Of a stretch of DNA of 58,784 nt, positions 17,867-44,583 are shown piece after piece. The notes under the pieces are model-generated. The model ran no database searches. It was not told where the DNA came from and saw only the letters and a list, made by a program, of their open reading frames with translations. Location: positions 1-58,784 of the forward strand of contig JAUQPS010000001.1 in assembly GCA_030550205.1 (NCBI GenBank), in the 5' to 3' direction. A program made the translations under genes and the position numbers. Each line of letters begins with the position of its first letter. The first letter of the stretch is position 1. This DNA is from a bacterium. Its GTDB lineage: Bacteria > Hydrothermota > Hydrothermia > LBFQ01 > DSFT01.

Positions 17867-18330
17867 AAAGAATTCTTTTAATTTTTTGGGTGTTAATAAA
17901 TGTTTTCGTTATTGGTTATCTATTTTTTAAATTTGAAGGACAAAAACAAAGAATTATTAATGGTTTTGAACTTGAAAGACAAAGTTTTGTATATAATTTA
18001 GGATATACTATTGGACTTTTTGTAAGGGATAAAGTATTAAGTGAAAGTTTTCCAGATGGAATTAGAAATTATTTAAATGAGCTTGTTAGAAATAATAAGA
18101 ATTTAGATTTAATTTTAATTGCAGATTCATTGGGAAATGTAATTTATTCTTCAAATGTTGCATATGAAAACAAAAATATAAATGAGCTCTTTTCTGAAAA
18201 TATAACATCACTTGTAAATTACCAATTAAAGTCAAGTAAGGATAAAATTATCTTAAATATGCCAATTTCAGAATTTAACAAAAAGCTTTTATATATAAGG
18301 ATAGAATATAAAAAGGAGGGTAGGTTATGA
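17863..18330 (+). CDS. Membrane-anchored protein with possible sensor-like domain
   Basis: 155 residues. One N-terminal transmembrane helix ([19 protein letters not shown]) is followed by an extracytoplasmic region of about 125 residues. Its spacing and the segments [18 protein letters not shown] and [17 protein letters not shown] resemble the Cache/PAS-like sensor domains of transmembrane receptors. No output domain follows. It begins GTG, overlapping nuoB, and its stop overlaps the OmpA-like gene by 4 nt. I do not recognise a named family, and the Cache resemblance is weak. Confidence 0.5.
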
Positions 18331-20639
18331 TATCACTTTTATTGGTAGCACAAACAGAAACTTATCTTTATGGTCTAAACTATGAGGCTCTAACGGGAAC
18401 AAGAAGAGTTGGCTCTGCGTTTGTTGATGGGATAAATGCTCTCACATTCCATCTGATAAATATAAACTATGAATATTCTTCGTCTGATTATGTTCTAAAT
18501 GGTAAACAAGGAAAACCTTTTATAGGTTCTCAATTCTTTGGATTTGGATATAGTTTGGCTCCATTTGAGGCTAGTGTAATAATGAAATATTTTGGTGATG
18601 CCTTTGATATAAATGGGGAAGGATGGTACTTGGGATATGGTCTTGGAGATGTGAAAGCAAACTTTAAAGTTGGTATTCCAATTGTAAAGAATACATTCGC
18701 GGTAGGTTTTAGGGGATATATAAATATACCAATTGGTGAAGAAGTTTATTTGGATCCCAATTCTTTTGATAAAGATACGCTAGGTGGTGTTCCTTTTGCA
18801 ACCCAAGACCCAACTGGTGGAAAAGGTGGAATTTATCGTCCGTTTGCATATAAAGTTTTAACATATGGGCTTGGAGGTGCTTTTTCTTTACAAAAATATC
18901 CATTAAGATTAAATTTTGAAGGTGTTTATAATGTTGGAGATACCACAAAGGGTGATGAATTTTGGCAATTTGGTTTGGGACTTTTAGCACATGTTGGAAT
19001 TGTTAAGCCATATGCGGAATTTGTATATTTAAAACCACAAGGTGATAATTTTGCTGATTCTTCTGCTACTTTATTAACATTTGGTTTAAAGGTTGGCTAT
19101 CCTTATTGGCATTTTGATATTGCACTTGAAAAGCCTTTAAATTATAGTTATGGGCCTTATGGACCTGATTATGTAAATGGACTACCTTATGGAGCATTTA
19201 AGCCAGATTGGAGTATCTGGGTAGCTCTTAACTTTACATATGAAGCTGGTATTCCAAAAATTAAATATGGTGATGTAATTGCACTTATTCAAGATGCTCA
19301 AACCAATGCTCCTATTAATAATGCAAGTGTAAATTTAAAGCTTGAAAAAGCACCTTTATCCCAGGCATCTGACCAGTTTGGGAAGGTTGAGTTTAAGAAA
19401 ATTCCTGTTGGAAGTTATGTTATTGAAGTATCTGCAAAGGATTATCAACCAGAAGTTAGAACAATAAATATAAATGAGGGCAAGAATGAAGTTAGAATTT
19501 TATTAAGTAAAATAAAGAAAGGAACAATTACAGTTAGAGTTTTTGATAGTGAAACCAAAGAACCATTACAAGCCCTTGTAAGTTTATTTAAGGATAATAA
19601 TAAAATATCAGAAGATAGAACAAATGAAAAAACTGGAACTTTAACATTTAAAGATTTAGAATCTGGCAATTATTCAATTAGAATTGAAAAAGAAGGTTAT
19701 AATGCTACTGTAAGAACAATTGAATTAAAGGAGAGTGCAATTGAGGAAGTTGGTTTAGTGAAAATAAAAGTTGAAACTCCAAAATTTGTAAAATTAACAG
19801 GAAAAGTTACAGATGCTAAAACAAATGCTCCTATTGCAGGTGTTCAGATTGTAGCAGGTGGTAAAAGTGTTGTAAGTGATCAGTTTGGATTATATACAAT
19901 TGATTCATTACCACTTGGTGTAATTCAAATTGGAGCAACAAAAGAAGGATATCAAACATATTCTGAGGTTATTCAAGCAAATGTTGAGGGAGCTCTTGTT
20001 AAGAATATTACATTAACTCCAATTGAAGAAAAACCAAAAACTGGAAAAGTAGTTATAACAGTTATTGATAGAGAAACGAAAAAACCTGTAATAGCTAATA
20101 TAAACATACCTGGAACTAATGTATCTGGTGCAACTGATAATAGTGGAGCTTATTCATTTGAAGTAGGACCTGGTGAATATGCAGTAAATATACAACCCCA
20201 AGACCAATCATATTATCCTCAGGTTAAGCAAGTTAGTGTAAAAGTTGGTGAAACTACAACTATTGTTGCAGAGCTTGTTAAGAAAGAAGCTAAAATTGTT
20301 GTAAGGAATATCTACTTTGATTTAAATAAAGCTACATTAAGACCAGAAAGTTATCCTGTTCTTGATGAATTATGTCAATTATTAAAAGAAATGCCAACCG
20401 CTGTTGTTGAAATTGAAGGACATACAGATAGTAGAGGTTCTGATGAATATAATTTAAGACTTTCAGATGCAAGAGCAAATGCTGTAAAAGATTACTTTAT
20501 TACAAAAGGTTGTATATCACCAGATAGAATTAAAGCAATAGGATATGGAGAAACAAGACCAGTAGTATTTCCAGAAAAGACAGAAGCAGATTATCAAATG
20601 AATAGAAGAGTTGAGATTAAATTCAAAGGAGAAAAGTAA
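18327..20639 (+). CDS. Large OmpA-family protein with barrel, carboxypeptidase-like repeats and peptidoglycan-binding domain
   Basis: 770 residues. An N-terminal beta-barrel-like region (to about 310) is followed by four carboxypeptidase-regulatory/PEGA-like domains at about 310-655. Repeated units include IQDAQTNAPINNASV, VFDSETKEPLQALVS, VTDAKTNAPIAGVQI and VIDRETKKPVIANI. A C-terminal OmpA domain follows (IYFDLNKATLRPESYPVL, IEGHTDSRGSDEYNLRLSDA, MNRRVEIKFK) that should bind peptidoglycan. The N-terminus is [14 protein letters not shown], an ultrashort uncharged signal that is fixed by an in-frame TAG just upstream; AGGAGGG precedes the ATG. A strong terminator follows. Probably an outer-membrane structural anchor. 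Confidence 0.85.
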   Translation: MISLLLVAQTETYLYGLNYEALTGTRRVGSAFVDGINALTFHLININYEYSSSDYVLNGKQGKPFIGSQFFGFGYSLAPFEASVIMKYFGDAFDINGEGWYLGYGLGDVKANFKVGIPIVKNTFAVGFRGYINIPIGEEVYLDPNSFDKDTLGGVPFATQDPTGGKGGIYRPFAYKVLTYGLGGAFSLQKYPLRLNFEGVYNVGDTTKGDEFWQFGLGLLAHVGIVKPYAEFVYLKPQGDNFADSSATLLTFGLKVGYPYWHFDIALEKPLNYSYGPYGPDYVNGLPYGAFKPDWSIWVALNFTYEAGIPKIKYGDVIALIQDAQTNAPINNASVNLKLEKAPLSQASDQFGKVEFKKIPVGSYVIEVSAKDYQPEVRTININEGKNEVRILLSKIKKGTITVRVFDSETKEPLQALVSLFKDNNKISEDRTNEKTGTLTFKDLESGNYSIRIEKEGYNATVRTIELKESAIEEVGLVKIKVETPKFVKLTGKVTDAKTNAPIAGVQIVAGGKSVVSDQFGLYTIDSLPLGVIQIGATKEGYQTYSEVIQANVEGALVKNITLTPIEEKPKTGKVVITVIDRETKKPVIANINIPGTNVSGATDNSGAYSFEVGPGEYAVNIQPQDQSYYPQVKQVSVKVGETTTIVAELVKKEAKIVVRNIYFDLNKATLRPESYPVLDELCQLLKEMPTAVVEIEGHTDSRGSDEYNLRLSDARANAVKDYFITKGCISPDRIKAIGYGETRPVVFPEKTEADYQMNRRVEIKFKGEK

Positions 20640-23618: not shown

Positions 23619-25897
23619 GGTTTAAAAACTTTGAACTTTTAATAATTATTCTAATCCCTTTAATTTTATTCTTTAAAGCATTATTTGGGAATTTGCTTGT
23701 TATGACTGATACTATTACAGATAGTATTTATATTCTTGAATTTATGAGAAATGAGATTCTGAAAGGAAGTTTTCCATTTTGGAATCCATATTTATTTTAT
23801 GGAATGCCTACTATTCCAACTCTTCAATTTGGTTTATATCCATTTTATGCCCTTTTGATAATTCTTCCTGCAAAATTCTTTGTAAATTATTGGGTAATTT
23901 TCCATCTTATAATTGCAGGTATTGGAATGTTTATTTTAGTAAATAAAATTGTTGAAGATAAGAAAATTGCTTTATTTGGTGCTATATCTTATTTATTAAG
24001 TTCAATTTATTTCGGTTATGTTTATAGTGGTCATCTTTCAAAATCTGCTATATTTTCAATACTTCCTTTTTATTTCCTATATTTAAGAGAAATTTTCAGA
24101 AATCCTAATTTAAAAAATATGTCATTATTGGCACTTTTTACAAGCTTAATATCTCTAACATCTCACCTTCAAATGATTTACTACTTAATTTTATTTACAT
24201 TTATTTATGTTATATATGAGCTTTTCTTCTTATTAAAAGAAGACAAAAAGAAAGCTTTAAAAGTGATTTTATTTGGTTTTATCTCGCTTTTTATTTCTGC
24301 AATTATTTTTATGGGTCAATTTTTACCAATTTATGATTATACAATAAATTATTCTCAAAGGGGACAAATTGAAAGTTATGAATTTGCTATAACATGGGCT
24401 CTTGGATGGCAAGATTTTATTTCAAGTTTTATAGGGGGATTTAGTGGATTTAGTCTTGAAAGTAATTATCCTTATTATTGGGGACCAAATGCCTTTAAAA
24501 TAAATTCTGAATACTTTGGAATAATTGTATTTTTATTGTTTACTTTAAGCTTTTTAAACAAAAATGAAAATAGATTAAGAAATATCTTAATTTTCTCATT
24601 TATTGTTTTTTCAATTATTTCCCTTGGTGGTTCAACGCCAATTTATAAATTTATATGGCAAGTTTTACCAGCTTATCAAAAATTTAGAGCTCCTTCAATG
24701 GCATTTTATATCTCTGTATTTTCTATTATTTTAATTGCTTGTATTACTCTTAAAAACATAAAGGAATTTCCAAAAAATTACACCAAATTTTTATTTGTTA
24801 TACCAATAGTTTTACTTCTATTTTGGCTTTTCGTAAATGATAGTTTAATAAATAGTATATTTAATAATCCTTTTGAAAAAGCACAAATTGTAATTTCTGA
24901 AATTGACAAAATTAAATTTTCAATATTTCTATCGTTTATATTTTCACTTATTGGAGCGACTATTATTTATGCCTATATAAACAAATGGTTAAGTTATAAT
25001 AATTTTATTTTGTTTTTAACTGCTTTAAGTGGATTTGATTTATTTTTAATTTCAAAAAATTTTATTCAATATGACCAAGAGGATAGATTTTCTGATGATC
25101 AAGTTGTTTTATTTCTAAAATCACAATCAGGCTATTATAATGTTTTTCCATTTTATTATAAATTAGATGAAAATTATTTTTCTTTAAAGAAAATTAATAC
25201 AATTTCTGGACATCGTGGAATTCAACCTGCAAAATTATTTAAATTAGTTGGGGCAGAGGAAAGATTAATGTTAAATCCTGCTACAACAGTTGAAATTTTA
25301 AAAAATCCAAAATTAAGTGATGTTTTATCAATTAGATATGTTATTACTCAAAAACTTCCCCAAACTGAAGACCCTATTATAAAATTGTTTTTTGAATATG
25401 TTAAAAATTATAAAAAAGTTTATGATGATGGGGTTTATGAAATTTATGAAAACTTAAATTATTATCCCTTATTTTATTTTGTTCATAATTATAAAGTTTC
25501 AAATAATCCTGTTTTAGATGTTAGAAATTTTGATGGAAAATTAGTTTTTGAAAATGAGCCCGATGAAAAGATAAATTATGATGGACAAAATAAAATTAGT
25601 TTTTCAGTTTTAAAATATTCTGAAAATTACATTAAGTTAAAAGTAGATTTAGAAAAGCCTTCTTATTTAATTTTTTCAAATAATTACCATCATCAGTGGA
25701 AGGCTTATGTAAATAATAAGGAGAAAAAAGTTTATAGAGTAAATTATACTCAAATGGCAATAGCCTTAACACAAGGCTCTTATATTGTTGAATTGAAATA
25801 TGTTCCAAATTTAGAAATTCTATCCTTGACACTTTGCATCATTGGCTTTATAATTTTGGCACTTACTCTTATAATAGGTAAGAGGTGGAGAAGATGA
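23612..25897 (+). CDS. YfhO-family polytopic membrane protein
   Basis: 761 residues from ATG 23612, with roughly a dozen transmembrane helices. It carries the YfhO signature after the first helix (SFPFWNPYLFYGMPTIP) and the C-terminal extracytoplasmic segment SYLIFSNNYHHQWKAYVN. ATG 23612 overlaps the thioesterase stop and has GGAG a few bases upstream; an ATG at 23582 is less likely because it lies deep in the preceding gene. In Firmicutes YfhO-type proteins take part in lipid-linked glycosylation of cell-surface polymers. A GT-C-like glycosyltransferase role is inferred, not shown. Helix content is clear; substrate unknown. Confidence 0.8.
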   Translation: MLRFKNFELLIIILIPLILFFKALFGNLLVMTDTITDSIYILEFMRNEILKGSFPFWNPYLFYGMPTIPTLQFGLYPFYALLIILPAKFFVNYWVIFHLIIAGIGMFILVNKIVEDKKIALFGAISYLLSSIYFGYVYSGHLSKSAIFSILPFYFLYLREIFRNPNLKNMSLLALFTSLISLTSHLQMIYYLILFTFIYVIYELFFLLKEDKKKALKVILFGFISLFISAIIFMGQFLPIYDYTINYSQRGQIESYEFAITWALGWQDFISSFIGGFSGFSLESNYPYYWGPNAFKINSEYFGIIVFLLFTLSFLNKNENRLRNILIFSFIVFSIISLGGSTPIYKFIWQVLPAYQKFRAPSMAFYISVFSIILIACITLKNIKEFPKNYTKFLFVIPIVLLLFWLFVNDSLINSIFNNPFEKAQIVISEIDKIKFSIFLSFIFSLIGATIIYAYINKWLSYNNFILFLTALSGFDLFLISKNFIQYDQEDRFSDDQVVLFLKSQSGYYNVFPFYYKLDENYFSLKKINTISGHRGIQPAKLFKLVGAEERLMLNPATTVEILKNPKLSDVLSIRYVITQKLPQTEDPIIKLFFEYVKNYKKVYDDGVYEIYENLNYYPLFYFVHNYKVSNNPVLDVRNFDGKLVFENEPDEKINYDGQNKISFSVLKYSENYIKLKVDLEKPSYLIFSNNYHHQWKAYVNNKEKKVYRVNYTQMAIALTQGSYIVELKYVPNLEILSLTLCIIGFIILALTLIIGKRWRR

Positions 25898-26415
25898 GAA
25901 TGTTCATAGGTATAGATTTACCAGAAGATGGGAAAAAGTATATTTATAATAATATAAAAGATATAATTGAGCAATATGATTTAAAATGGGTAGATTACCG
26001 TTTATATCATTTAACTTTAAAATTTCTAGGCGAAATAAGTGAGAAAGAGTTAAGTAATATAGATAAAAAGCTAAATGAAATTTCAAAAAGATATAAAGCT
26101 TTTGAATTAAAACTTAATAGCTTAGGTAAGTTTCCTGTATATAGTGATAAATTAAATGTGTTGTGGTTGGGTGTTGAATATAGCAAAGAGCTTGAAGACC
26201 TTGCTATTGATATTCAAAATAATTTTAAGAATTTTGGTGATAATAAACCATTTAGCCCTCATATAACACTCGCAAGAAATAAAAATGGAACTTCTATTAC
26301 TCTAAAAGAAAAAACATTTGATTATAAATTTGTAGTAGATAAGATAACTCTATTTGAAAGTATTCTTCCGGGACCAATTTATAAAACCATTAAAGTTTAT
26401 CCTTTAAAATTATAG
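25894..26415 (+). CDS. thpR: RNA 2',3'-cyclic phosphodiesterase (2H family)
   Basis: 173 residues from ATG 25894 (MRMFIGIDLPEDGKKYI). Both 2H catalytic motifs are present: HLTLKFLGE and HITLARN. The family hydrolyses 2',3'-cyclic phosphate RNA ends and was first described as a 2'-5' RNA ligase. ATG 25894 overlaps the YfhO stop as ATGA and has a GGTGGAG site; a GTG at 25885 is in frame but less likely. The last codons contain the promoter of the next operon. Confidence 0.9.
   Translation: MRMFIGIDLPEDGKKYIYNNIKDIIEQYDLKWVDYRLYHLTLKFLGEISEKELSNIDKKLNEISKRYKAFELKLNSLGKFPVYSDKLNVLWLGVEYSKELEDLAIDIQNNFKNFGDNKPFSPHITLARNKNGTSITLKEKTFDYKFVVDKITLFESILPGPIYKTIKVYPLKL
26402..26415 (+). promoter_or_regulatory. 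TTTAAAAT promoter of PorV-TPR-Tol operon
   Basis: CTTTAAAATTATAG ends 6 nt before ATG 26422, lies inside the end of thpR, and has no Shine-Dalgarno sequence downstream. Confidence 0.55.
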
Positions 26416-26421
26416 GCATAG

Positions 26422-27528
26422 ATGATAAATTTAATTTTAAATTTAAGTTTTGGACCTCATCCTATATCTATGGGTAATGCTTATAATGCCTATGCTGAAA
26501 GAGTAGATGGTATATTCTTTAATCCTTCTGCTGCTTCTATGGCTAGTAGAGTTATGCTAGGTGGGTTTTATTCCCAGGCGGGTTATTATGGTGGAGGACT
26601 TGTTATTCCAAATAGATTTGTAGCAATTGGAGTTGCTGGTTACTTGGATAGCACTAAAAATGGTATGATTTATGGTGTTTTATCAAGGAATTTTAGTGGG
26701 TTTAATATAGGTTTTGGTGTTCAATATCCATTTAGTCAAGATACTGCTAAAAAAGATACTACTTTAAAGCCTCATTTTTATGGTGGATTTAGTTTTTATT
26801 TTAGTGAATATTTTATGTTTGGTTTTACTGCTGAAAATATAGATACACCAAATGCCTTAAAACTTAAATTTGGCATTCAAGTTGCTAACTATCCTTTGCC
26901 AGTTATTGGTAGGTCATTAACATTTACGATGGATTTAAATACAACTATGGCAAGGGAAGAGAAAAGTAGGGATTTGGCAGCACTTGGAATAGAGCTTGCT
27001 CCATTTTATCCATTATTTTTAAGAATAGGTTATAATTATAATCCAGATATTGGCCATAGATTACCTGCGGGTTTAGGTATATTATATGTATATAATACAG
27101 TTGATATTTTGGGTGACCTTAGTGTGAATGATATTAAGGCGGAGAGTAAAGATAAGGTTTATACTTTTGGACTAACTGTAAAATTCTTTGGTCATACAGT
27201 ATGGGCTGAATCTTCACCTAAAATTATAGAGGTTATTCCTGAATCTGAAGCAAGTGTAACAAAAATTTGTTTTAGATATATTTTACCATCAAAAGTTACA
27301 AGATGGACATTTAACATAACAAATAGGTGGGGTAAAATTTATAAAACATATTGGGGGGATGATAACCCACCAAGTGAATGTATTTATTGGCATGTTGTAG
27401 ATGAAGAAGGGAAATATACAGGACCAGGGGTTTATTATTATGATTTTATAGTTAGAACAGAAGATGGAAGAATTTATAAAAGGAGAGGAGGCTTAGTTAA
27501 TGTAAAGAAGGGGGTGAAAGGGATATGA
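26422..27528 (+). CDS. PorV/UPF0164-like outer-membrane barrel with C-terminal FlgD-like module
   Basis: 368 residues. After MINLILNLSF comes the typical PorV-type start GPHPISMGNAYNAYAERVDG with FFNPSAASM. Alternating strands of a barrel run to about residue 270. The last 90 or so residues form an Ig-like FlgD/gliding-type module (WTFNITNRWGKIYKTYW, GVYYYDFIVRTEDGRIYKRR). PorV is the shuttle protein of type IX secretion in Bacteroidetes; homologues occur in several FCB phyla. The start is fixed by an in-frame TAG directly before ATG, so the signal is ultrashort. First gene of the operon to at least 33727. Confidence 0.75.
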   Translation: MINLILNLSFGPHPISMGNAYNAYAERVDGIFFNPSAASMASRVMLGGFYSQAGYYGGGLVIPNRFVAIGVAGYLDSTKNGMIYGVLSRNFSGFNIGFGVQYPFSQDTAKKDTTLKPHFYGGFSFYFSEYFMFGFTAENIDTPNALKLKFGIQVANYPLPVIGRSLTFTMDLNTTMAREEKSRDLAALGIELAPFYPLFLRIGYNYNPDIGHRLPAGLGILYVYNTVDILGDLSVNDIKAESKDKVYTFGLTVKFFGHTVWAESSPKIIEVIPESEASVTKICFRYILPSKVTRWTFNITNRWGKIYKTYWGDDNPPSECIYWHVVDEEGKYTGPGVYYYDFIVRTEDGRIYKRRGGLVNVKKGVKGI

Positions 27529-30119
27529 TGCCAATTTTAAATGTGATTTTGAGCTTGACATATGAAGAATTTTACAAATCATATAGAGAAGCGGAAGCGC
27601 TTTTCTTCGCTGGCAAATACGATAAAGCGGAAAGGATATATAGGCGTTTATTAACTGATGCTAGAAAATTTGGGTATGGTAAGGAGTTTCTTTATAGAAT
27701 AGCGGAATGTCATTTCAATATGGGTAGTTATAAAAATTCCTATGATGAGTTTACTGCTTTATATAAGGATGGTGAAATTGAAAAGAAATTACCATATTTA
27801 AAAGGCGAAATAGCTTATGCTATTGCAGTTTTCTTTACGAATTTTAGAGATCCAAAAGAAGCTAAACAAGTTATTCAAGAGCTTCAAAAATACCCATATT
27901 ATAAGAATTCTAATAGAACGAAGATGTTATTAGGAATAATAGATTATAGAGAAGGTAGATACGATGAAGCAATTGAAAAATTAAAAGATATTAAAGATAT
28001 TCCTGAGGCTCAGTTTTACTATGCTAGGAGCTTAGCATTATTGCAAAGACCATTAGAGGCTATTGGAGTTTATAAAGTGCTCTTAGAAAGGTATAAAAAC
28101 ACACCAAGAGAACCATTTATATCTTATGCAATGGTTGAAGCAAACTTTATATATGCGGATTATAAGGGAACAGCAGAATTAGCAAAGGACTTTATGCAAA
28201 AATATCATGGTTCCATATTTTCTGATTGGGTTCAATATTATTGGGGTATATCTTTATATAGAATGAAAGAATTTGAGAGTGCAATTGAAAAGCTAACACT
28301 TATTTCTAAAAAGCAAAACTTTGAATTTGCTAACTTAGCAGCATATTTTGCTGGAAATGCTGAAAGAGAATGGGGTCATCAGTATAAATCAGAAGGAAAA
28401 GTTGATGATGCAAAAGCTAAGTATAAAGAAGCAGTTAAATACTATGAATCTGCTTTAGCAAAAGCAAATGATCAAGAAATTTATAATGTATCTTTTATAA
28501 GATTAATGCAGGCAAACTTTTATGTTGGAGATACACTTAAATCCTATACAATGGCTGATCAATTAAAACAAATGAAATTCCCACCAGAGGAAGCAGGTAT
28601 TGGTGAATATGCAAGAGGTGCAATTGATTATGCACTTGGTAAATATACACCTGCTGCGAAGAACTTTGAGTTAGTAATAGAAAATTATAAGCAAACATTT
28701 TTAAGAAAACCTGCTATGGCTATGGAGATGTTATCCTTGGTTCATGATAGAAAATTTAAAGAAGCATTGTTAAAAGGTAATATTTATTATGCAGAAATGC
28801 AAGATACTGTAAGGCCAGAGGCACAGGATACATCATTTGATTTGTGGAAAGGTTGGTATGTTTTAGGGTTGGCAGAAGCTCACTATTATGCTGGTGCTTA
28901 TCCTGAAGCAGAATTAAGATATAATATAAATATAAAGAAGCAATTGACAAGAGATTTAGTAATACTTTCAAGGCTTGGTCTTGGATGGATAGCATATCAT
29001 CAAAAGCGATATGATGATGCATTAGCGCACTTTAACTCCATAGATGGTGCTGTAAGAGCAAGGGGAGACACATCGCTAATAATTGCGTTATTCCTTGGAA
29101 AAGGTGTTGCTAAATTTAATAAAGGTGAATATATGGATGCATTTAAGGATTTCGCAGTTGCTGCTCTTTATACACCAAGATATGAAAGTGGTGAGGCTTT
29201 ATACTTCCAGGGTTTTGCAGCTTTGGCACTTAAATCCTATGGTGACGCAGTTAAGTTATGGGAGAGAGTGGTTAATGAATATCCAGACCATCCAAGAGCA
29301 GCATTAGCAGCATTTAGAGCGGCTGATATTTATCTTAAAGCAGCACAAGTTGATAAGGCTATTGCTTTATTAGAATGGGAAGTTGAGCATTTCCCAGGTC
29401 ATCCTATTACACCAAGAGCAATGTATTCACTTGGTAGAAACTATACTATAAACAAAGAATTTGATAAAGCTATACAAATATATGAAAAATTCTTATACTT
29501 ATATCCAGACCATGAACTTGCTCCTGATGTTAGAAAGAGAGTTGAAGATGTTTATTTGGTAGCATCTACACAAGATCCAAAATATGCTGAACAACTTGCT
29601 CAAAAATATCCTGCAAGTGATAAAGCAGCAGAGGCATTGTATTTGCAGGCAGCTCAAGCATATCAAAATGGTGATGAAGAGAAAGCGGCAGATTTATTCT
29701 TTAGAGTTGCTAATGAATTTCCAAAGAGTCCAAAGGCAGCAGAGGCTCTTTATACTGCTGGTGCTTTATACTTGAAGCAAAAGAAATATCAACAAGCAAT
29801 TCAAGCTTTAAAGAAATATAAAGATTTCTTCCCACAAGGCACAAATATAGAAGATGTGTATAATTACCTTATGACCGCTTATTTAGCATCTAATGATTTT
29901 ACTTCTGCAATACAAATTGGACAAGAAGCATTAAATAAATTCCCAGAAAGTAAAAATAAAGCAAAAACATTGTTTAACATTGGATGGGCTTATTCACAAC
30001 TTGGTAATTCAAAAGAAGCAATTGCTTATTTACAACAAGCAAGAACATTGTATGAACAAGAGGGTAATACGCAGATGGTAAGCCAGATAGACCAAATTTT
30101 GCAAATTTTACCTAAGTAA
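27525..30119 (+). CDS. Large exported TPR protein
   Basis: 864 residues made almost entirely of tetratricopeptide repeats. Examples are FFAGKYDKAERIYRRLL, YREGRYDEAIEKLKDI, FDKAIQIYEKFLYLYPDH and KKYQQAIQALKKYKDFFPQG. The C-terminal half resembles the BamD/CpoB-like 'YPDH..A.A' TPR class. A short hydrophobic N-terminus (MMPILNVILSLTYEE) suggests export. ATG 27525 overlaps the PorV-like stop with a GGGGGTGAAAGGG site, and upstream codons to the in-frame TAA offer no other start. By position it probably scaffolds the Tol-like complex, much as AglT does in Myxococcus gliding clusters. That parallel is inference. Confidence 0.85.
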   Translation: MMPILNVILSLTYEEFYKSYREAEALFFAGKYDKAERIYRRLLTDARKFGYGKEFLYRIAECHFNMGSYKNSYDEFTALYKDGEIEKKLPYLKGEIAYAIAVFFTNFRDPKEAKQVIQELQKYPYYKNSNRTKMLLGIIDYREGRYDEAIEKLKDIKDIPEAQFYYARSLALLQRPLEAIGVYKVLLERYKNTPREPFISYAMVEANFIYADYKGTAELAKDFMQKYHGSIFSDWVQYYWGISLYRMKEFESAIEKLTLISKKQNFEFANLAAYFAGNAEREWGHQYKSEGKVDDAKAKYKEAVKYYESALAKANDQEIYNVSFIRLMQANFYVGDTLKSYTMADQLKQMKFPPEEAGIGEYARGAIDYALGKYTPAAKNFELVIENYKQTFLRKPAMAMEMLSLVHDRKFKEALLKGNIYYAEMQDTVRPEAQDTSFDLWKGWYVLGLAEAHYYAGAYPEAELRYNINIKKQLTRDLVILSRLGLGWIAYHQKRYDDALAHFNSIDGAVRARGDTSLIIALFLGKGVAKFNKGEYMDAFKDFAVAALYTPRYESGEALYFQGFAALALKSYGDAVKLWERVVNEYPDHPRAALAAFRAADIYLKAAQVDKAIALLEWEVEHFPGHPITPRAMYSLGRNYTINKEFDKAIQIYEKFLYLYPDHELAPDVRKRVEDVYLVASTQDPKYAEQLAQKYPASDKAAEALYLQAAQAYQNGDEEKAADLFFRVANEFPKSPKAAEALYTAGALYLKQKKYQQAIQALKKYKDFFPQGTNIEDVYNYLMTAYLASNDFTSAIQIGQEALNKFPESKNKAKTLFNIGWAYSQLGNSKEAIAYLQQARTLYEQEGNTQMVSQIDQILQILPK

Positions 30120-30136
30120 AGGAGGAGGGAGAGAGC

Positions 30137-30793
30137 ATGATATTTAAACTATATGCAGTTTGGGATGGGGTCGTAGGACCCAAAACTTACTTTTCAAGTT
30201 TACCAATGTTTATCCTTTTGGTTGTTTCTATAATCCTTATTGCTCTTGTTATTGAAAGGTTCATAGCATATAACAGAAGAAAGGAGGCTGATGCTAATAG
30301 AATAGTAAAGGAAACTCTTACTCATCTAAGGGAAGGTGATATTGAGGGAGCATTAAAGCGTTTGGGTGATGCTGATACACCTATAAGAAATGTTTTGAGA
30401 GTGGGACTTCAAAATGCTGAACTTCCACCAGAGGAAGTTGAGAAGCTTATGTATGCAAGAATTTTAAATGAAAAGGATAGATTAACACAAAGACTTACTC
30501 CAATAAGTGTTATAAGCGTTCTTGCGCCTCTTCTTGGATTATTTGGAACAGTTGATGGTCTAATACACGCTTTCCATGAAATTGCGGTTACAGGAACGGG
30601 TGGTCCTGAGGTTGTAGGTGAAGGTATTTCTACCTCATTGGTAGCTACATGGACAGGTCTTATAATAGCAGTTTTAGCAGTTATTTTCTTTAATGTTTTC
30701 AATAGAACGGTGGATGTAATGGTTTCAAGAATCGAGGCAGCGGTTCAAGAATTTCTTGTAATACTTAAAGAATATCAAGCGACGAGGGGGTGA
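30137..30793 (+). CDS. exbB: MotA/TolQ/ExbB-family proton channel
   Basis: 218 residues with three transmembrane helices: near the N-terminus (FILLVVSIILIALVIERFIA), LLGLFGTVDGLIHAF, and GISTSLVATWTGLIIAVLAV. The conserved Thr of helices 2 and 3 (GTVDG, SLVATWTG) that lines the proton path is present. TolQ/ExbB pentamers harness proton flow to energise ExbD/TolR and TonB/TolA. It has an AGGAGG site and is immediately followed by two ExbD genes and tonB. Whether it energises TonB-dependent transport or a Tol/Agl-like envelope machine is not decided by sequence. Confidence 0.92.
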   Translation: MIFKLYAVWDGVVGPKTYFSSLPMFILLVVSIILIALVIERFIAYNRRKEADANRIVKETLTHLREGDIEGALKRLGDADTPIRNVLRVGLQNAELPPEEVEKLMYARILNEKDRLTQRLTPISVISVLAPLLGLFGTVDGLIHAFHEIAVTGTGGPEVVGEGISTSLVATWTGLIIAVLAVIFFNVFNRTVDVMVSRIEAAVQEFLVILKEYQATRG

Positions 30794-30798
30794 TTTAA

Positions 30799-31233
30799 AT
30801 GCCCAAGAGAAGATTAGAACATGGTAGTGTAGAGGCAGAGGTCCCCGCAGCGGGCCTCATTTCATTAACAGATGTAATGGGTTCGCTTGTTAAAGTTTTT
30901 GCTTTAACTATTCCATTTGTTATAGAATCTGGTATATTCGTTAGTCGTTCTATGGCTGCTAAACTAAATAGACCTATTCAGCAAAAACAAGTTAAAACAG
31001 ACGTTAAAGTTAGTATTCATATGAGAGCGGATGGAACTATTGAACTTAATAAAAAACCTGTTACCCAAGAACAACTTGAAGATTTAGTTCCAAAGCTTTT
31101 AGCAAGGAGTATTGAAAAGAATGCTCTATTATCTGCTGATCCAGAAGTTGTTTATGAAAATGTTGTTCAGATGATAGATTTTCTAAAAAGTAAAGGTGCA
31201 GGTGATGTTCTAATAATGAAAAGAGGAGGGTAA
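30799..31233 (+). CDS. exbD: ExbD/TolR-like protein with conserved Asp
   Basis: 144 residues. One N-terminal transmembrane helix has the ExbD proton-relay aspartate (ISLTDVMGSLVKVFALTIPF). The periplasmic domain has KVSIHMRADGTIELNKKPVT and ends DVLIMKRGG. The TM is less hydrophobic than in E. coli ExbD. It starts 5 nt after exbB and ends 2 nt before the second ExbD gene, each with a GGAGGG or GGGGG site. It probably forms a mixed dimer with its neighbour inside the ExbB ring. Confidence 0.88.
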   Translation: MPKRRLEHGSVEAEVPAAGLISLTDVMGSLVKVFALTIPFVIESGIFVSRSMAAKLNRPIQQKQVKTDVKVSIHMRADGTIELNKKPVTQEQLEDLVPKLLARSIEKNALLSADPEVVYENVVQMIDFLKSKGAGDVLIMKRGG

Positions 31234-31235
31234 CT

Positions 31236-31667
31236 ATGGCAAAGGCAAAGGGTGGAGAAGGAGAAGTTGCGCAAGCGGTATTTAATTTAGCTAATGTATT
31301 TGCATTTGTATTTGTTAGTCTTATTATTGCTTCTAAGCAATTATTTCAGGGTACAAGTGTTGAAGTAGAAGTTCCTAAGGCAAGGGTTATAGAAGCAGAT
31401 TTAGAGCAAAGTATAGCGGTATCAATTAAAAAAGATAAAACAATTTACTTTAAAGATAAGCAAGTTGATCTTCAAACATTAACGGAGTTAGTTAAAAAAG
31501 CACAGCAAGAATATAAAGAAAAAAATCCAGATGCAGAACTTGGAGAACAATTAGTTGTAATAAGAGCGGATAAATCAGTTGATTGGCAAACAGTTTTAAA
31601 TACTATTGATGCAGTTAAAAGGGGTGGTAGTAAAAGAATAACCTTGGCAGTTATTAAAAAGACATAG
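31236..31667 (+). CDS. ExbD/TolR-like protein lacking the TM aspartate
   Basis: 143 residues with the same layout as the preceding gene: a short basic N-terminus, one transmembrane helix (FNLANVFAFVFVSLIIASKQ) and a periplasmic ExbD fold (IAVSIKKDKTIYFKDKQVD, EQLVVIRADKSVDW). Where ExbD has the essential Asp (PLVDV), this protein has Asn (NLANV), so it should not carry the proton relay itself. The pair may act as an asymmetric heterodimer. Intact length and operon position argue against a pseudogene. Confidence 0.85.
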   Translation: MAKAKGGEGEVAQAVFNLANVFAFVFVSLIIASKQLFQGTSVEVEVPKARVIEADLEQSIAVSIKKDKTIYFKDKQVDLQTLTELVKKAQQEYKEKNPDAELGEQLVVIRADKSVDWQTVLNTIDAVKRGGSKRITLAVIKKT

Positions 31668-31678
31668 GGGGTGAGAGC

Positions 31679-32803
31679 ATGAGAGAAAGACAAGTGATTC
31701 TCCCAGAATGGGAGGAAGATAGAGGGTCAAAAAAGAGATTTCTCATATTCCTGTTGTTTGCTATTATTATCCATGCTGGTATTCTATGGTCTCTTCGAAG
31801 CCAAATAGCAAGAGCTATTGAAGAAGCAAAGCTAAGAGAAATTCAGCTTCTTGAAGAAAAAGCTGCTAAGAGTAATTTTCTCAATCCAAAGCTACAAAGA
31901 AAAGTTGAACAAATGAAGAAAGAGGTTCAACAGCAAAAGAAAGAAGAAAAGAAAGAAGAAGCTAAGAAGGAAGAAAGTAAGCCTGGTGACCAAAAGAAAG
32001 TAGATTTAAGTTCTAAGCTTTTATCTCAATCAACAGAACTTCCAAAACCTACACCTGGTCTTGGTGGTGGTCCAAAATTGGATGTTAATGTAAATATTGA
32101 CCCAAGGCTATTATCTATGCCTTCTGTTCAAACAGAGCAATTAGATGTTAAGGTAGATTTAAGTAAAACTAATATAGAGGGAATAGCAAATCTTCAAGCT
32201 GAAATTGATGTAAGTAGTGCTAACTTAGCAGATGTGGGTGTTGCGGATGTAGTAGTAGGAGTTACTGGTAAAGGAGCAAGTATTTCAGATATACTTTCAC
32301 AAGAGGCAGTTCCTGCTATTTCGCTTGGTGGAGGAATTGAAGGTGGTGGTAGTGGAGGACTTGGTCTTGGGACAGATGTTGGAGGAGGAATTGGTGGTGG
32401 AGGAAAAGCAGTTAGTCTTGCAACAAGTCCAGATTTAACAAAAGAGGTAAAAGTAGAAATAAGCAAGCCTACTGTGAGTGCACCTCCTACTGTTCAAGAA
32501 ATAGCTTCTGCTGCACCAGCAGGAATGCAACTTGAAGGTGAGGTTGCTAATAGACAAATTTTAAATAGAGTAAAACCAGTATATCCAAAGAAAGCTAAAC
32601 AAGAAGGTAGAGAAGGAACTGTTGTTTTAGCATTTTCCGTGGATGCTAATGGAAATGTATTTAATATCCAAGTTGTTCGCTCATCTGGTTATGCTGATTT
32701 AGATAATGCTGCAATTACTGCACTACAACAGTGGAAATTTGCTCCAAAACCTGGAAAGCCAGAGGAGAAGGGAAGATTAACAGTAAGATTTGTTTTGATG
32801 TAA
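31679..32803 (+). CDS. tonB: TonB-family energy-transducing protein
   Basis: 374 residues. A cytoplasmic basic tail and one transmembrane helix (FLIFLLFAIIIHAGILWSL) are followed by a Lys/Glu-rich coiled stretch (about 40-105). A Gly-rich linker follows (GGGIEGGGSGGLGLGTDVGG region, about 215-245). The C-terminal TonB domain runs RVKPVYPKKAKQEGREGTVV, VRSSGYADLDNAAI and WKFAPKP. It couples the ExbB/ExbD motor to outer-membrane partners. The classical Pro-Lys linker is replaced by the charged and Gly-rich regions. A GGGGGTGAGAG site precedes ATG. Confidence 0.93.
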   Translation: MRERQVILPEWEEDRGSKKRFLIFLLFAIIIHAGILWSLRSQIARAIEEAKLREIQLLEEKAAKSNFLNPKLQRKVEQMKKEVQQQKKEEKKEEAKKEESKPGDQKKVDLSSKLLSQSTELPKPTPGLGGGPKLDVNVNIDPRLLSMPSVQTEQLDVKVDLSKTNIEGIANLQAEIDVSSANLADVGVADVVVGVTGKGASISDILSQEAVPAISLGGGIEGGGSGGLGLGTDVGGGIGGGGKAVSLATSPDLTKEVKVEISKPTVSAPPTVQEIASAAPAGMQLEGEVANRQILNRVKPVYPKKAKQEGREGTVVLAFSVDANGNVFNIQVVRSSGYADLDNAAITALQQWKFAPKPGKPEEKGRLTVRFVLM

Positions 32804-32815
32804 GGAGGAAAGATT

Positions 32816-33727
32816 ATGAGATTATTTAAGCTTTTAATTATTTTAGGTTTTGTGGGGCTTTTGATGTCCCAAGAGCAACAACCTCCTGCTCAAGGAAGTG
32901 GAACAGAACAAGAAGAGGAAGTTGTTGAAAAAGCTGAATATTCCATTGATGATGCAATAAAGCCTATTACGGATGTTTCGCTTGCCCCATTTGAGCCTAT
33001 TGACTCTTTACTTTATCGCAAAGAAAGAAAATTAGAGCTTAGACTTCCAAAGACCATAGAAGAAGAAATTAGAAAGGTTATAAAACTTGAAAACTTATTT
33101 ATAAGACAACCTGTATATCCAATAAATGTATATAAACAAGTTCCTCTTAATGTTGGCGAGTTTAATAAGAAATATAGAAATGTTAAAGATTGGAAAATAG
33201 AAATATATGACTCTTGGGGAAATAAGCTTAAAGAATATTCTGGTAAAGGAAAGCTTCCTGATTATGTTTATTGGGATGGAAAAGATACAAAAGGTAAGGC
33301 GGTTGTTGAGCCAGGACAACTATTCCATTATAGAATTATTGTTTCTGATGGAAGAGAAACAAGAAGAGAATTAAGTAAGCCATTTTCTGTTAAGGGATAT
33401 TACTATGAAGAGGGGGGTTATAAATATACTATTGTTGATATAGGAGATGTATTTGAAAGGGGATTTGCAGTATTTAGAGAAGGGCAAGAGGATAGAATTA
33501 TAGAAGCTTTAAATATATTAAAAGAGAATTATCCTTGGACAGCACCTATTGAGATTACATATTATCCAAGTCCAGAAGCTATGGGTGTTATGGAAGAGCG
33601 TATGAGGATATTGAAACAATTTATAATGAGTAGATTACCTATTGAAGAAGGTAATTTAGTATTAAAGCCTGGATATTATGAAGGTGGAGGAATAAAGCTA
33701 GAGAAGATTGTAATAAAGTTTAAATAA
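32816..33727 (+). CDS. Exported protein with FlgD-like Ig module and possible OmpA-like end
   Basis: 303 residues with a standard charged signal (MRLFKLLIILGFVGLLMSQE). The middle has a FlgD/gliding-like Ig module (DWKIEIYDSWGNKLKEYSGK, YVYWDGKDTKGKAVVEPGQL) very like the one ending the PorV-like protein at the head of this operon. The C-terminal part (RIIEALNILKENYPWTAPIE, ERMRILKQFIMSRLPI) has the strand-helix pattern of OmpA-type domains but lacks a clear peptidoglycan-binding signature. AGGAGG precedes the ATG. Its position directly after tonB suggests it is a partner of the Tol-like complex. Confidence 0.7.
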   Translation: MRLFKLLIILGFVGLLMSQEQQPPAQGSGTEQEEEVVEKAEYSIDDAIKPITDVSLAPFEPIDSLLYRKERKLELRLPKTIEEEIRKVIKLENLFIRQPVYPINVYKQVPLNVGEFNKKYRNVKDWKIEIYDSWGNKLKEYSGKGKLPDYVYWDGKDTKGKAVVEPGQLFHYRIIVSDGRETRRELSKPFSVKGYYYEEGGYKYTIVDIGDVFERGFAVFREGQEDRIIEALNILKENYPWTAPIEITYYPSPEAMGVMEERMRILKQFIMSRLPIEEGNLVLKPGYYEGGGIKLEKIVIKFK

Positions 33728-33739
33728 AAAAGAAAGAAT

Positions 33740-34210
33740 ATGCGAAGTATATTTGTTTTGTTTTTGATAGGTCTTATCTCTTGTGGTAATAAAAGTGATA
33801 CGAGAATAAATTTTAGTTTTAGAACGATTGATAATGAAATTGTTGAAATTTCTCGCTTTGATGGTAAGGTATTAGTTGTGGATTTTTGGGCGACTTGGTG
33901 CCCTCCCTGTTTAAAAGAAATTCCTCATTTTATAGAACTTCAAGAAAAATATAAAAATGATGTCCAGTTTATAGGTTTAAATGTTGGTGAAAAAAAAGAA
34001 AAAGTTGAAGAATTTGTGAAAAATATGGGTATAAATTATATTATTGGACATTCTGAGGAGAGAATAGAAAAGTTATTTGGTGGTATTAGTGGTCTTCCTA
34101 CTACATTTATAATTGGAAAGGATGGTAAAATAAAAGCAAGAGCTATTGGTTATCGTCCAAAAGAGTGGTTTGAAAATCAAATAATTAGTGCTTTGAGGGA
34201 AAGTAAGTGA
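33740..34210 (+). CDS. TlpA-like thioredoxin lipoprotein (CPPC)
   Basis: 156 residues with a lipobox (LIGLISC, lipidated C15) and a TlpA/ResA-type thioredoxin domain with active site WATWCPPCLKE (C54, C57) and cis-Pro in GLPTTFIIGKDG. Such proteins reduce disulfides in the periplasm, for example during cytochrome maturation. It is followed by a paralogue overlapping by 4 nt. No cytochrome c genes are nearby, so the client is unknown. Confidence 0.88.
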   Translation: MRSIFVLFLIGLISCGNKSDTRINFSFRTIDNEIVEISRFDGKVLVVDFWATWCPPCLKEIPHFIELQEKYKNDVQFIGLNVGEKKEKVEEFVKNMGINYIIGHSEERIEKLFGGISGLPTTFIIGKDGKIKARAIGYRPKEWFENQIISALRESK

Positions 34211-34722
34211 TACTTTTAATTGCATTTGCTTTATTATTTAGTGGTTGTATAAAGATTGAATTGGGAAGTAATAAAGATGAAGAAAAGTTTGATCCTAACA
34301 GAGTAATTAATTTTAAATTCCAAACACTTGACAATAAAATTATTGAAACATCAAGTTTTGAAAATAAAGTTTTAGTAGTAAATTTTTGGGCTATTTCTTG
34401 TAAGCCTTGTGTTGCAGAAATACCTTATTTTATTGAATTGCAGGAAAAATATAAAGATCAAATCCAAGTTATTGGATTAAATGTAGGAGAAGAAAAGAAT
34501 AAAGTTAGAGAATTTGTAAAAAAGAAGAAAATAAATTATATAGTAGGTTATTCAAATGATGAAGTTGCAAGAATATTGGGATTTAATAATGTGCTTCCTA
34601 CAACTTTTATAATTGGGAAAGATAAAAGGATAAAATCAAAAATGGTTGGTCTTTCCTTGTTTGAAAATATGAAAAAGATTTTAGAAGAAAAGATAAATAC
34701 TGCTTTAAAAGAAAGCTCTTGA
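34207..34722 (+). CDS. TlpA-like thioredoxin lipoprotein (CKPC)
   Basis: 171 residues, a tandem paralogue of the preceding gene. The short uncharged signal MILLIAFALLFSGC has a lipobox (C14). The active site is WAISCKPCVAE (C65, C68), with Lys in place of the first Pro of its neighbour, which should shift redox potential. The start is GTG 34207, fixed by an in-frame TAA just upstream. The thioredoxin fold is complete (LPTTFIIGKDKRI). The two may act as a relay or on different clients. Confidence 0.85.
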   Translation: MILLIAFALLFSGCIKIELGSNKDEEKFDPNRVINFKFQTLDNKIIETSSFENKVLVVNFWAISCKPCVAEIPYFIELQEKYKDQIQVIGLNVGEEKNKVREFVKKKKINYIVGYSNDEVARILGFNNVLPTTFIIGKDKRIKSKMVGLSLFENMKKILEEKINTALKESS

Positions 34723-42408: not shown

Positions 42409-44583
42409 ATGCTTTTCATCTTTTTAAATTTCTTCTCGGATGAAAAATTACTTGTTAGGTTCTATATAAAGGATAAGAGCGATATAGAAAACATCATAAA
42501 TTTAGGTATAACTGATATTACACATTCTATAGACTTAAAGAAAGGATATGCAGATTTTGTTTTAACTGAAATTCAATATCAAAAAATTAAAGACTTATAT
42601 CCAAATGAGATTTTGCTAAGAAGTTCTGATACTAGAACTCTTATTAACTTTGGACCTTATTATACATATAATGAAGCTATGAACGAAATAAACAATTTTT
42701 ATAATAATTATCCAAATCTTGTATCTTCTCCATTTATTGTAGGCACTAGTTGGGAAAATAGGCTTATTAAAGGAATTAAAATAACTTCAAATAACAATTC
42801 AAAACCTGTTGTTTGGTTTAATAGTGCAATTCACGCAAGAGAACCTGCTGGGGTTTCTGTCCTCTTAGGATTTGGTAGCTTTTTACTTAAAAACTATAAC
42901 AAAAATCCAGAAATAAAATATCTTCTTGATAATAGAGATATTTATATAATACCTGTTACAAATCCGGATGGGTATGTGTTTAATGAAAGCTATTCAAGTG
43001 GTTTATGGAGAAAAAATAAAAGAGATAATAATAATAATGGAGTTTTTGAAACAAGTTATGATGGAGTTGATTTAAATAGAAATTTTGGATATATGTGGGG
43101 ATGTTGTGGAGGTTCTAGTGGTGATCCTTCAAGTGATACTTATAGAGGTCCTTCCGCATTTTCAGAGCCGGAAAGTCAAGCTTATAGAGATTTCTTTAAT
43201 CAAGTAAAACCAACAATTGGAGTTGATATTCATACGTATTCAAATTTAATTCTTTGGCCTTGGGGATATACAAGCACACCAACACCTGATGATTCTTCTT
43301 ATAGAACCTTAGCTTGGAAGATGTTTAGACATAATGCTTATATATCATATCAAGCATATAATTTATATGTAACAGATGGGGTTACAGATGATTGGATGTA
43401 TGGTGCTACTAATGAGCATCCAAAAGCTCTTGGTTTTACATTTGAAATAGGTGAGAATTTTTATCAACCTGACACAAATATAATTTTAGAACAAGTAGGT
43501 GAGAATATATTTCCATTTTTATATCTTGTAAAATCAGCAGGTCCATATATTGAATTAACAAAATTTTCTTATTATTTTAGCAACGATACAGTGAAAATTT
43601 CAATTTCTGGTATGAATCTTGGCTTTAATAGTCCAATAAATAACTTATACGCAAAAATTCAAATCCTTGATAGTGTAAATGCAATACCTTTGGATACAAT
43701 TGTTTATATTGGAAGTTTAAATTCTTTGGGATATGGATTTTTTAATATCCCAAATGCATTTTCATTTAGGGCATTAAATGGATGTAAAAACTATAAAGTT
43801 CTTATGACATTTTATAATAATGCTGGATTTATTCAAACTATTGAAAAATTTATAGCGGGTCAAAAGCAAATTGTATTTTCTGATGATTTTAATAATAACT
43901 CAAATTGGCAAGTAAATGGTGGCACTTGGGTATTTTCAAATGGATATTTAAGAACAAATTCTCCTGGAACCTTGTATAACAATAATTTAAACACAGATGT
44001 AAGGTTATTAAGTTCTTTAAATGTAAATAATTATGATTACCTTGAAGCAATAATAACACATAGATGGAGAATTGAAGGTAATTATAATGCACTTGATGAT
44101 GTTTATGATTTTGCAGGTCTTGATTTTTCAGAAGATAACAAATTATTCATACCTATTAAAAGATTTTGGGGAATAAATAGTAATTTTAGAAGTGATACAT
44201 TTGATATTACTATGTTTAAGACAAGTAATTTGTATTTAAGGTTTAAGTTTTATTCAGATGGGGCGGTTAGAGATAGTGGTTGGATAATAGATAAAATTGA
44301 GATATTGGGGGCTAATGTATGTGTTCAAACAAAACAAATTGAAAGTCCAATCTCTGATTTTTCAAAATTAAGCATAAAAACTAATTCAAATGGAATAATT
44401 TTAAATATTCCATATAAGTCATGGGTAAAGGTTAAAGTTTATTCAGTAGATGGTAGAGTTGTATTTGCGAAGGAATATAATAATATGAATGATATTAAAA
44501 TAGAGCTAAAAAATAAAGGGGTATTTGTAATTTTTGTTCAAACGGATAGAGAAAAGATATACTTTAAAATTTCCAAGTTTTGA
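42409..44583 (+). CDS. Secreted M14 zinc carboxypeptidase with C-terminal sorting-type domain
   Basis: 724 residues. The M14 catalytic domain has zinc ligands H142 and E145 (SAIHAREPAGVS), NPDGYVFNESYSSGLWRKNK, VDLNRNFGY, the third His in GVDIHTYSN and catalytic Glu in FTFEIGENFY. A beta-sandwich region follows (about 380-640). The end resembles a type IX type A sorting domain (WVKVKVYSVDGRVVFAKEY, NKGVFVIFVQTDREKIYFKI). The N-terminus MLFIFLNFFSDEK is an ultrashort signal fixed by an upstream stop. Probably cell-surface or extracellular, for peptide scavenging. Confidence 0.85.
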   Translation: MLFIFLNFFSDEKLLVRFYIKDKSDIENIINLGITDITHSIDLKKGYADFVLTEIQYQKIKDLYPNEILLRSSDTRTLINFGPYYTYNEAMNEINNFYNNYPNLVSSPFIVGTSWENRLIKGIKITSNNNSKPVVWFNSAIHAREPAGVSVLLGFGSFLLKNYNKNPEIKYLLDNRDIYIIPVTNPDGYVFNESYSSGLWRKNKRDNNNNGVFETSYDGVDLNRNFGYMWGCCGGSSGDPSSDTYRGPSAFSEPESQAYRDFFNQVKPTIGVDIHTYSNLILWPWGYTSTPTPDDSSYRTLAWKMFRHNAYISYQAYNLYVTDGVTDDWMYGATNEHPKALGFTFEIGENFYQPDTNIILEQVGENIFPFLYLVKSAGPYIELTKFSYYFSNDTVKISISGMNLGFNSPINNLYAKIQILDSVNAIPLDTIVYIGSLNSLGYGFFNIPNAFSFRALNGCKNYKVLMTFYNNAGFIQTIEKFIAGQKQIVFSDDFNNNSNWQVNGGTWVFSNGYLRTNSPGTLYNNNLNTDVRLLSSLNVNNYDYLEAIITHRWRIEGNYNALDDVYDFAGLDFSEDNKLFIPIKRFWGINSNFRSDTFDITMFKTSNLYLRFKFYSDGAVRDSGWIIDKIEILGANVCVQTKQIESPISDFSKLSIKTNSNGIILNIPYKSWVKVKVYSVDGRVVFAKEYNNMNDIKIELKNKGVFVIFVQTDREKIYFKISKF
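44562..44574 (+). promoter_or_regulatory. TTTAAAAT promoter with leader before barrel gene
   Basis: CTTTAAAATTTCC lies inside the end of the M14 gene, 27 nt before ATG 44602. Unlike most copies it is followed by AAAAAAGGAGGT, so this transcript would have a short leader with a Shine-Dalgarno site. Confidence 0.4.

Follow-up and report, generated by a model that had tools for sequence, protein, structure and literature searches.

The window analysed here, a stretch of 58,784 nucleotides, belongs to a lineage of WOR-3 (Ca. Caldipriscota) in the same order as Ca. Caldipriscus. This placement comes from a relative in that order, G011, whose contig 31 includes, on the reverse strand and without a single difference, locus L119 of the Ca. 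Caldipriscus sp. T1.2 record. Between positions 26422 and 33727 of its forward strand it carries seven intact open reading frames in the same direction, separated from gene 1 to gene 7 by -4, 17, 5, 2, 11 and 12 bp, which confirms the tight run of intact envelope genes described in the original prediction. These genes and their neighbours are as follows.

25826-25854, + strand: sigma-70-like promoter TTGACA-17-TATAAT, 12/12 match to the consensus
25885-26415, + strand: thpR, RNA 2',3'-cyclic phosphodiesterase (TIGR02258, 3.5e-39)
26422-27528, + strand: gene 1, PorV/PorQ-family outer membrane barrel (residues ~1-265) with a C-terminal FlgD-like Ig domain (~272-368)
27525-30119, + strand: gene 2, TPR protein of 864 aa with CpoB/YbgF/BamD-like repeats
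30137-30793, + strand: gene 3, TolQ/ExbB channel subunit
30799-31233, + strand: gene 4, ExbD1, transmembrane aspartate D25 kept (codon 30871-30873)
31236-31667, + strand: gene 5, ExbD2, Asn20 replacing the aspartate (codon 31293-31295)
31679-32803, + strand: gene 6, TonB-type transducer with an N-terminal transmembrane segment containing a histidine, a long linker and a canonical C-terminal domain
32816-33727, + strand: gene 7, secreted protein with a FlgD-Ig and an OmpA-like domain
33740-34722, + strand: two TlpA/ResA-like thioredoxins, from family matches and gene order

The sequence at 25826-25854 is the sole perfect -35/-10 pair on either strand of the whole window (p ~0.002 when the 585 bp in front of thpR are shuffled, a value that concerns the consensus match only) and is probably the operon promoter. 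This candidate for the single promoter proposed earlier lies upstream of thpR, so that the transcript probably includes thpR as well as both thioredoxin genes at the other end; thpR itself is outside the machine proper. Of the families read, the window's is the only one with thioredoxin genes directly 3' of the operon, and it is also only there that the Ig domain of the barrel contains two cysteines. A disulfide matching the thioredoxins of 33740-34722 is possible in the barrel of this family.

Family searches bore out the identities first assigned to the genes (PorV-like, TPR, TolQ, two ExbD, TonB and FlgD/OmpA-like). Gene 1 alone displayed a weak PorV match (NCBIfam PorV_fam, 1.4e-4). The profile of its family (A2) matched the solved PorV of the SprA-PorV structure over the barrel (6h3i_F, E-value 1.8e-10) and FlgD over the C-terminal domain (3osv, E-value 2.3e-5), and FlgD_ig was detected in 15 of 21 family members. 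An AF2 model built from four sequences shows about 14 barrel strands followed by a better-scored Ig domain at low confidence (pLDDT 53), and a Foldseek search with this model returned generic barrels and was uninformative. Judged by its sequence relationships, gene 1 is a true PorV-family barrel. Gene 2 matches many TPR families, the best NCBIfam model being tol_pal_ybgF (7e-47), and its position in the operon is conserved among relatives. The TolQ protein (PF01618, E-value 1.6e-29) carries pore residues Thr138 and Thr171, which are invariant among relatives (alignments A3 and A4), and family homology is what suggests that TolQ and ExbD would form a 5:2 rotary stator. ExbD1 and ExbD2 both match PF02472 (7e-13 and 1.5e-15, respectively) and the C-terminal domain of gene 6 matches TonB_C (PF03544, 2.2e-21). 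Comparison of the transmembrane segments indicated that the SHLS-type histidine of the operon TonB is absent in family f2 and in genus g2.

Gene 7 family members match FlgD_ig (1.3e-7) and OmpA (8e-6). The FlgD-Ig domain spans residues ~107-190, the OmpA-like domain, with a b-a-b-a-b-b fold order, residues ~200-303, and there is no lipobox. In an AF2 model made without an alignment only the Ig domain is well modelled, with FlgD matches. The protein also has a conserved N-terminal segment (residues 33-50), putatively TonB-box-like. We scanned gene 7 with a matrix built from the TonB boxes of receptors of the same phylum and obtained p<0.05 in 4 of 37 sequences, as compared to 4 of 36 for the TPR control, which is not significant; the best gene 7 windows often land on the conserved N-terminal segment.

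Conservation of the gene order had been proposed as a check on the original prediction. In a first survey 60 relatives were searched with gene 7 and the surrounding DNA was read, and the order PorV-TPR-TolQ-ExbD1-ExbD2-TonB-gene 7 proved common to almost every operon read, across the phylum. It was repeated with few variants in 40 further loci from a sample of 147 WOR-3 genomes, of which 79, about half of the phylum, matched the gene 7 profile at E<=1e-40. The variants consist of TolQ::ExbD1 fusions, of TolQ-ExbD-TolQ-ExbD arrangements and of rare truncations. Families f12 and f24 have the operon next to ftsA-ftsZ, and in two families (loci L034 and L042) it is flanked by ftsA-ftsZ and, on the downstream side, by dnaX-ybaB. 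In the tree of operons, two families of the window's class (f3 and f9) group with families of other classes, which reflects either horizontal transfer or a class artefact. In the Ca. Caldipriscus T1.2 MAG (L119:11571-12655, corresponding to G011 contig 31) TonB is broken into two frames (256 and 88 aa), while the end of gene 7 is lost in unknown bases. Finally, a MAG labelled Clostridia contains TolQ, ExbD1 with the aspartate, ExbD2 with alanine, TonB and gene 7 in this order (L121:412-3949); the operon may reach beyond WOR-3, or the label may be wrong.

Most lineages possess an eighth gene 5' of the barrel, whose secreted product is about 210-577 aa long. Where examined, its tail matches those of type IX secretion (T9SS) type A proteins, of PorZ and of PorU (for example TIGR04183 at 23.3 bits for a cut-off of 23 in L037, and PorZ at 9.4e-7 in L069), and the remaining lineages have C-termini that resemble these. 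This gene has shrunk to 129-182 aa in family f2. In the window's family its position is occupied by thpR and the tail-bearing partner gene has been lost, so that a client would there need to be encoded elsewhere. PorU pairs with PorV and PorZ with PorQ in T9SS attachment. The operon resembles these couples, as well as SprB-SprF, in having a PorV/PorQ-family barrel that in most lineages follows the gene of a surface protein ending in a T9SS-type tail, but its barrel differs by its own C-terminal Ig domain and by the ExbD/TonB motor alongside.

The least expected result of this analysis, and the one that lends itself best to testing, is the asymmetry between the two ExbD. The proton-binding residue of E. 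coli ExbD is Asp25. In the window ExbD1 has Asp25, whereas the aligned residue of ExbD2 is Asn20. Among 73 operons in which both ExbD could be read, the transmembrane aspartate is present in ExbD1 only in 51, in ExbD2 only in 18, in both in four and in neither in none; exactly one ExbD thus carries the ion-binding aspartate in 69 of the 73. Three of the two-Asp exceptions (G051, G139 and G135) contain a second TolQ, each ExbD lying behind its own TolQ, and the fourth is G078. In the clades where ExbD1 carries the aspartate the partner residue is Gly, Asn, Ser, Cys or Ala, and Asp in G078 only. Both operon ExbD proteins remain full-length. Furthermore, the ExbD1 proteins form a single clade in the ExbD tree whether they carry Asp or Asn (support 100/95), indicating that the loss struck different paralogues in different lineages. 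About three changes on the operon tree account for the one-Asp state, which argues for an old, clade-wide condition rather than many independent events; these changes were too few for a sign test of the independence of the two losses. Two aspartates per axle have been described for ExbD and TolR (PMC12905483), both AglQ and AglS have one (PMC9389320), and we found no single-Asp hetero-axle in the openly accessible literature. ExbD1 and ExbD2 most likely pair together as a hetero-axle with a single aspartate.

The genome of the window contains one other ExbB, within an ExbB-ExbD-ExbD-TonB set that has a TonB-dependent receptor (~1080 aa) directly on its 3' side, and five such receptors in all. 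The statement that no TonB-dependent receptor is present is therefore correct for the window but not for the genome. The neighbouring Ton sets have the aspartate in both ExbD in all but the window's genus, where it is absent from both. The ExbD pairs of this genus read Asn/Asn (L045:11073-11895, G000:C208) and Ser/Asn (L104:11340-12169, G001), with all frames open and the receptor still downstream. Of the four ExbD read in the window's own genome, only ExbD1 of the operon has the aspartate.

The operon very probably encodes a force transducer separate from the known ones. Our preferred explanation, to which we would give a little less than an even chance, is that of a third transducer driven by the proton-motive force (PMF), which acts on a T9SS-like attachment barrel and whose stator is asymmetric, with one Asp. 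It is favoured by the conserved gene order, the PorV identity of the barrel, the tail of the eighth gene, the one-Asp pattern with both ExbD full-length and the pore threonines invariant, and the presence of Ton and Tol-Pal sets beside the operon. Points against it are the loss of the tail-bearing gene in the window's family, the genomes with SprA and PorU but no operon, the non-significant TonB-box scan, the histidine missing from TonB in f2 and g2, the small number of changes behind the one-Asp state and the low confidence of the barrel model. In this mechanism, pieced together from the parts, a TolQ pentamer would form the channel with an ExbD1-ExbD2 axle inside, and the motor would pull TonB, which would carry the force through the periplasm. 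The target of TonB would most likely be gene 7, whose FlgD-Ig domain could dock on the corresponding periplasmic domain of the PorV-type barrel and pass the force on, the TPR protein serving as a scaffold. Since the partner of the barrel bears a T9SS tail in most lineages, the client would probably consist of T9SS-type surface proteins, handled in a manner modelled on PorV and PorQ holding PorU and PorZ or on SprF holding SprB. That the machine anchors, loads or moves such proteins on the barrel is a tentative proposal.

A somewhat unlikely alternative is a Tol-Pal-like machine for envelope stabilisation and division, in which the TPR protein would correspond to CpoB, TolQ and ExbD to TolQR, TonB to TolA and gene 7 to a Pal-like protein. 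TPR, TolQ, TolR, TolA/TonB-like and OmpA-like parts are indeed joined in a single operon, with tol_pal_ybgF as the best model of the TPR protein, an OmpA-like domain in gene 7 and ftsA-ftsZ as neighbours in two families. However, the operon lacks TolB and is centred on a PorV barrel, and gene 7, devoid of a lipobox cysteine, is not a Pal lipoprotein; its alignment suggests that the loop is shortened where Pal binds peptidoglycan. TolB was found at E<=1e-50 in 63 of the 147 genomes, and 44 of these have the operon. One genome (G053) contains a complete Pal-CpoB-TolQ-TolR-TolA-TolB cluster (L113), a Ton set (L112) and the operon (L035). This coexistence of TolB with the operon lowers the case for a disguised Tol-Pal system. 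No TolB match was obtained in the window's order, where Tol-Pal duties could fall to the operon as well, or in the window's own genome, a MAG of 1.89 Mb that is 86% complete in 210 contigs and was read only in stretches around matches, so that gene absences from it weigh little.

A gliding or adhesin-moving machine, comparable to Myxococcus Agl/Glt or to Flavobacterium SprB/SprF on the Gld track, seems unlikely. The Agl/Glt core (AglR, Q and S with GltC, D, E and G), found in many proteobacteria, combines one TolQ with two different TolR/ExbD as in the operon, and, compared by description, also has TPR proteins, a TonB-like transducer and barrels (PMC3169522); a tail-bearing surface protein beside the barrel is the counterpart of sprB-sprF (PMC12635249). 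Nevertheless, both TolR proteins of Agl/Glt keep their aspartate (PMC9389320), and a PorV barrel, a FlgD-Ig domain and a T9SS tail are absent from the descriptions of this system. Mildly against gliding, strain sy37, the first cultured WOR-3 strain, which may lack the operon, has pili and showed no motility under the microscope (PMC12285271). Transducers with the parts TPR-TolQ-TolR-TolR-vWA, described in the PVC group (PMC12204202), differ from the operon in having vWA in place of TonB.

The original prediction had offered, as one example, that the machine could serve to export sorting-domain proteins. A general WOR-3 type IX secretion motor replacing GldLM appears improbable. The search for T9SS components that had been suggested did recover the translocon SprA (G000:C124) and the sortase PorU (G000:C118) in the window's genome, SprA is present in 59 and PorU in all of the 60 genomes, and the operon includes a PorV-family barrel. 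GldM was found in none of the 60, in a search whose positive control, six genomes of other phyla, gave no match either. In contrast, four near-complete genomes (G013, G018, G023 and G026) have SprA and PorU with a Ton set only and no operon, which speaks against a general export motor. Lastly, it is very improbable that the operon is another Ton system, taking up nutrients through a receptor encoded elsewhere: its TonB, ExbB and ExbD belong to the canonical families and the genome offers five receptors, but a complete Ton set with receptor is already present, and the operon differs from Ton by two unlike ExbD with one aspartate and by constant partners (the PorV-type barrel with its Ig domain, the TPR protein and the Ig/OmpA protein of gene 7) among which there is no receptor.

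Returning to the one-Asp transducer, the view of a conserved, PMF-type trans-envelope operon matching none of the known systems holds. Three features were not part of the original prediction: a Ton set lying apart from the operon, an eighth gene in most relatives and the single-Asp ExbD pair. The prediction was to fall if a canonical T9SS motor and separate Ton or Tol-Pal sets lay elsewhere and the gene order was not conserved; a separate Ton set does exist, while the order is conserved and GldM went undetected under the control described above. We would go further, with reserve, and suggest that the operon may represent a further class of PMF machine next to Ton, Tol-Pal, Agl/Glt and Gld/Por, defined by an obligate one-Asp ExbD1-ExbD2 heterodimer axle and by a T9SS-type attachment barrel as its target.

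Models of MotAB, ExbBD and TolQR couple rotation to the alternating protonation of two equivalent aspartates, and 5:2 motors have been modelled as moving in 36-degree steps with alternating sites (PMC9389320). A one-Asp heterodimer, if true, breaks the two-fold equivalence underlying these models, and such a motor should turn in 72-degree steps with five ions moved per revolution, if it rotates at all. A natural motor family keeping one aspartate provides a built-in test of two-Asp models. Additionally, the association of a barrel, a T9SS-tail protein and a motor, in a phylum where T9SS parts are near universal but GldM went undetected, is informative about the energy supply of such surface systems in bacteria other than Bacteroidota.

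Elsewhere in the window, two large proteins end in T9SS type A tails that score close to the threshold (42409-44583 at 20.6 bits and 54576-56780 at 20.0 bits, for a cut-off of 23). The gene at 18327-20639, some 6 kb before the start of the operon, encodes a protein of 770 aa with a C-terminal Pal/PorE-like OmpA domain, which matches the NCBIfam models CHU_0125_OmpA (4.5e-40) and T9SS_PorE (2e-31).
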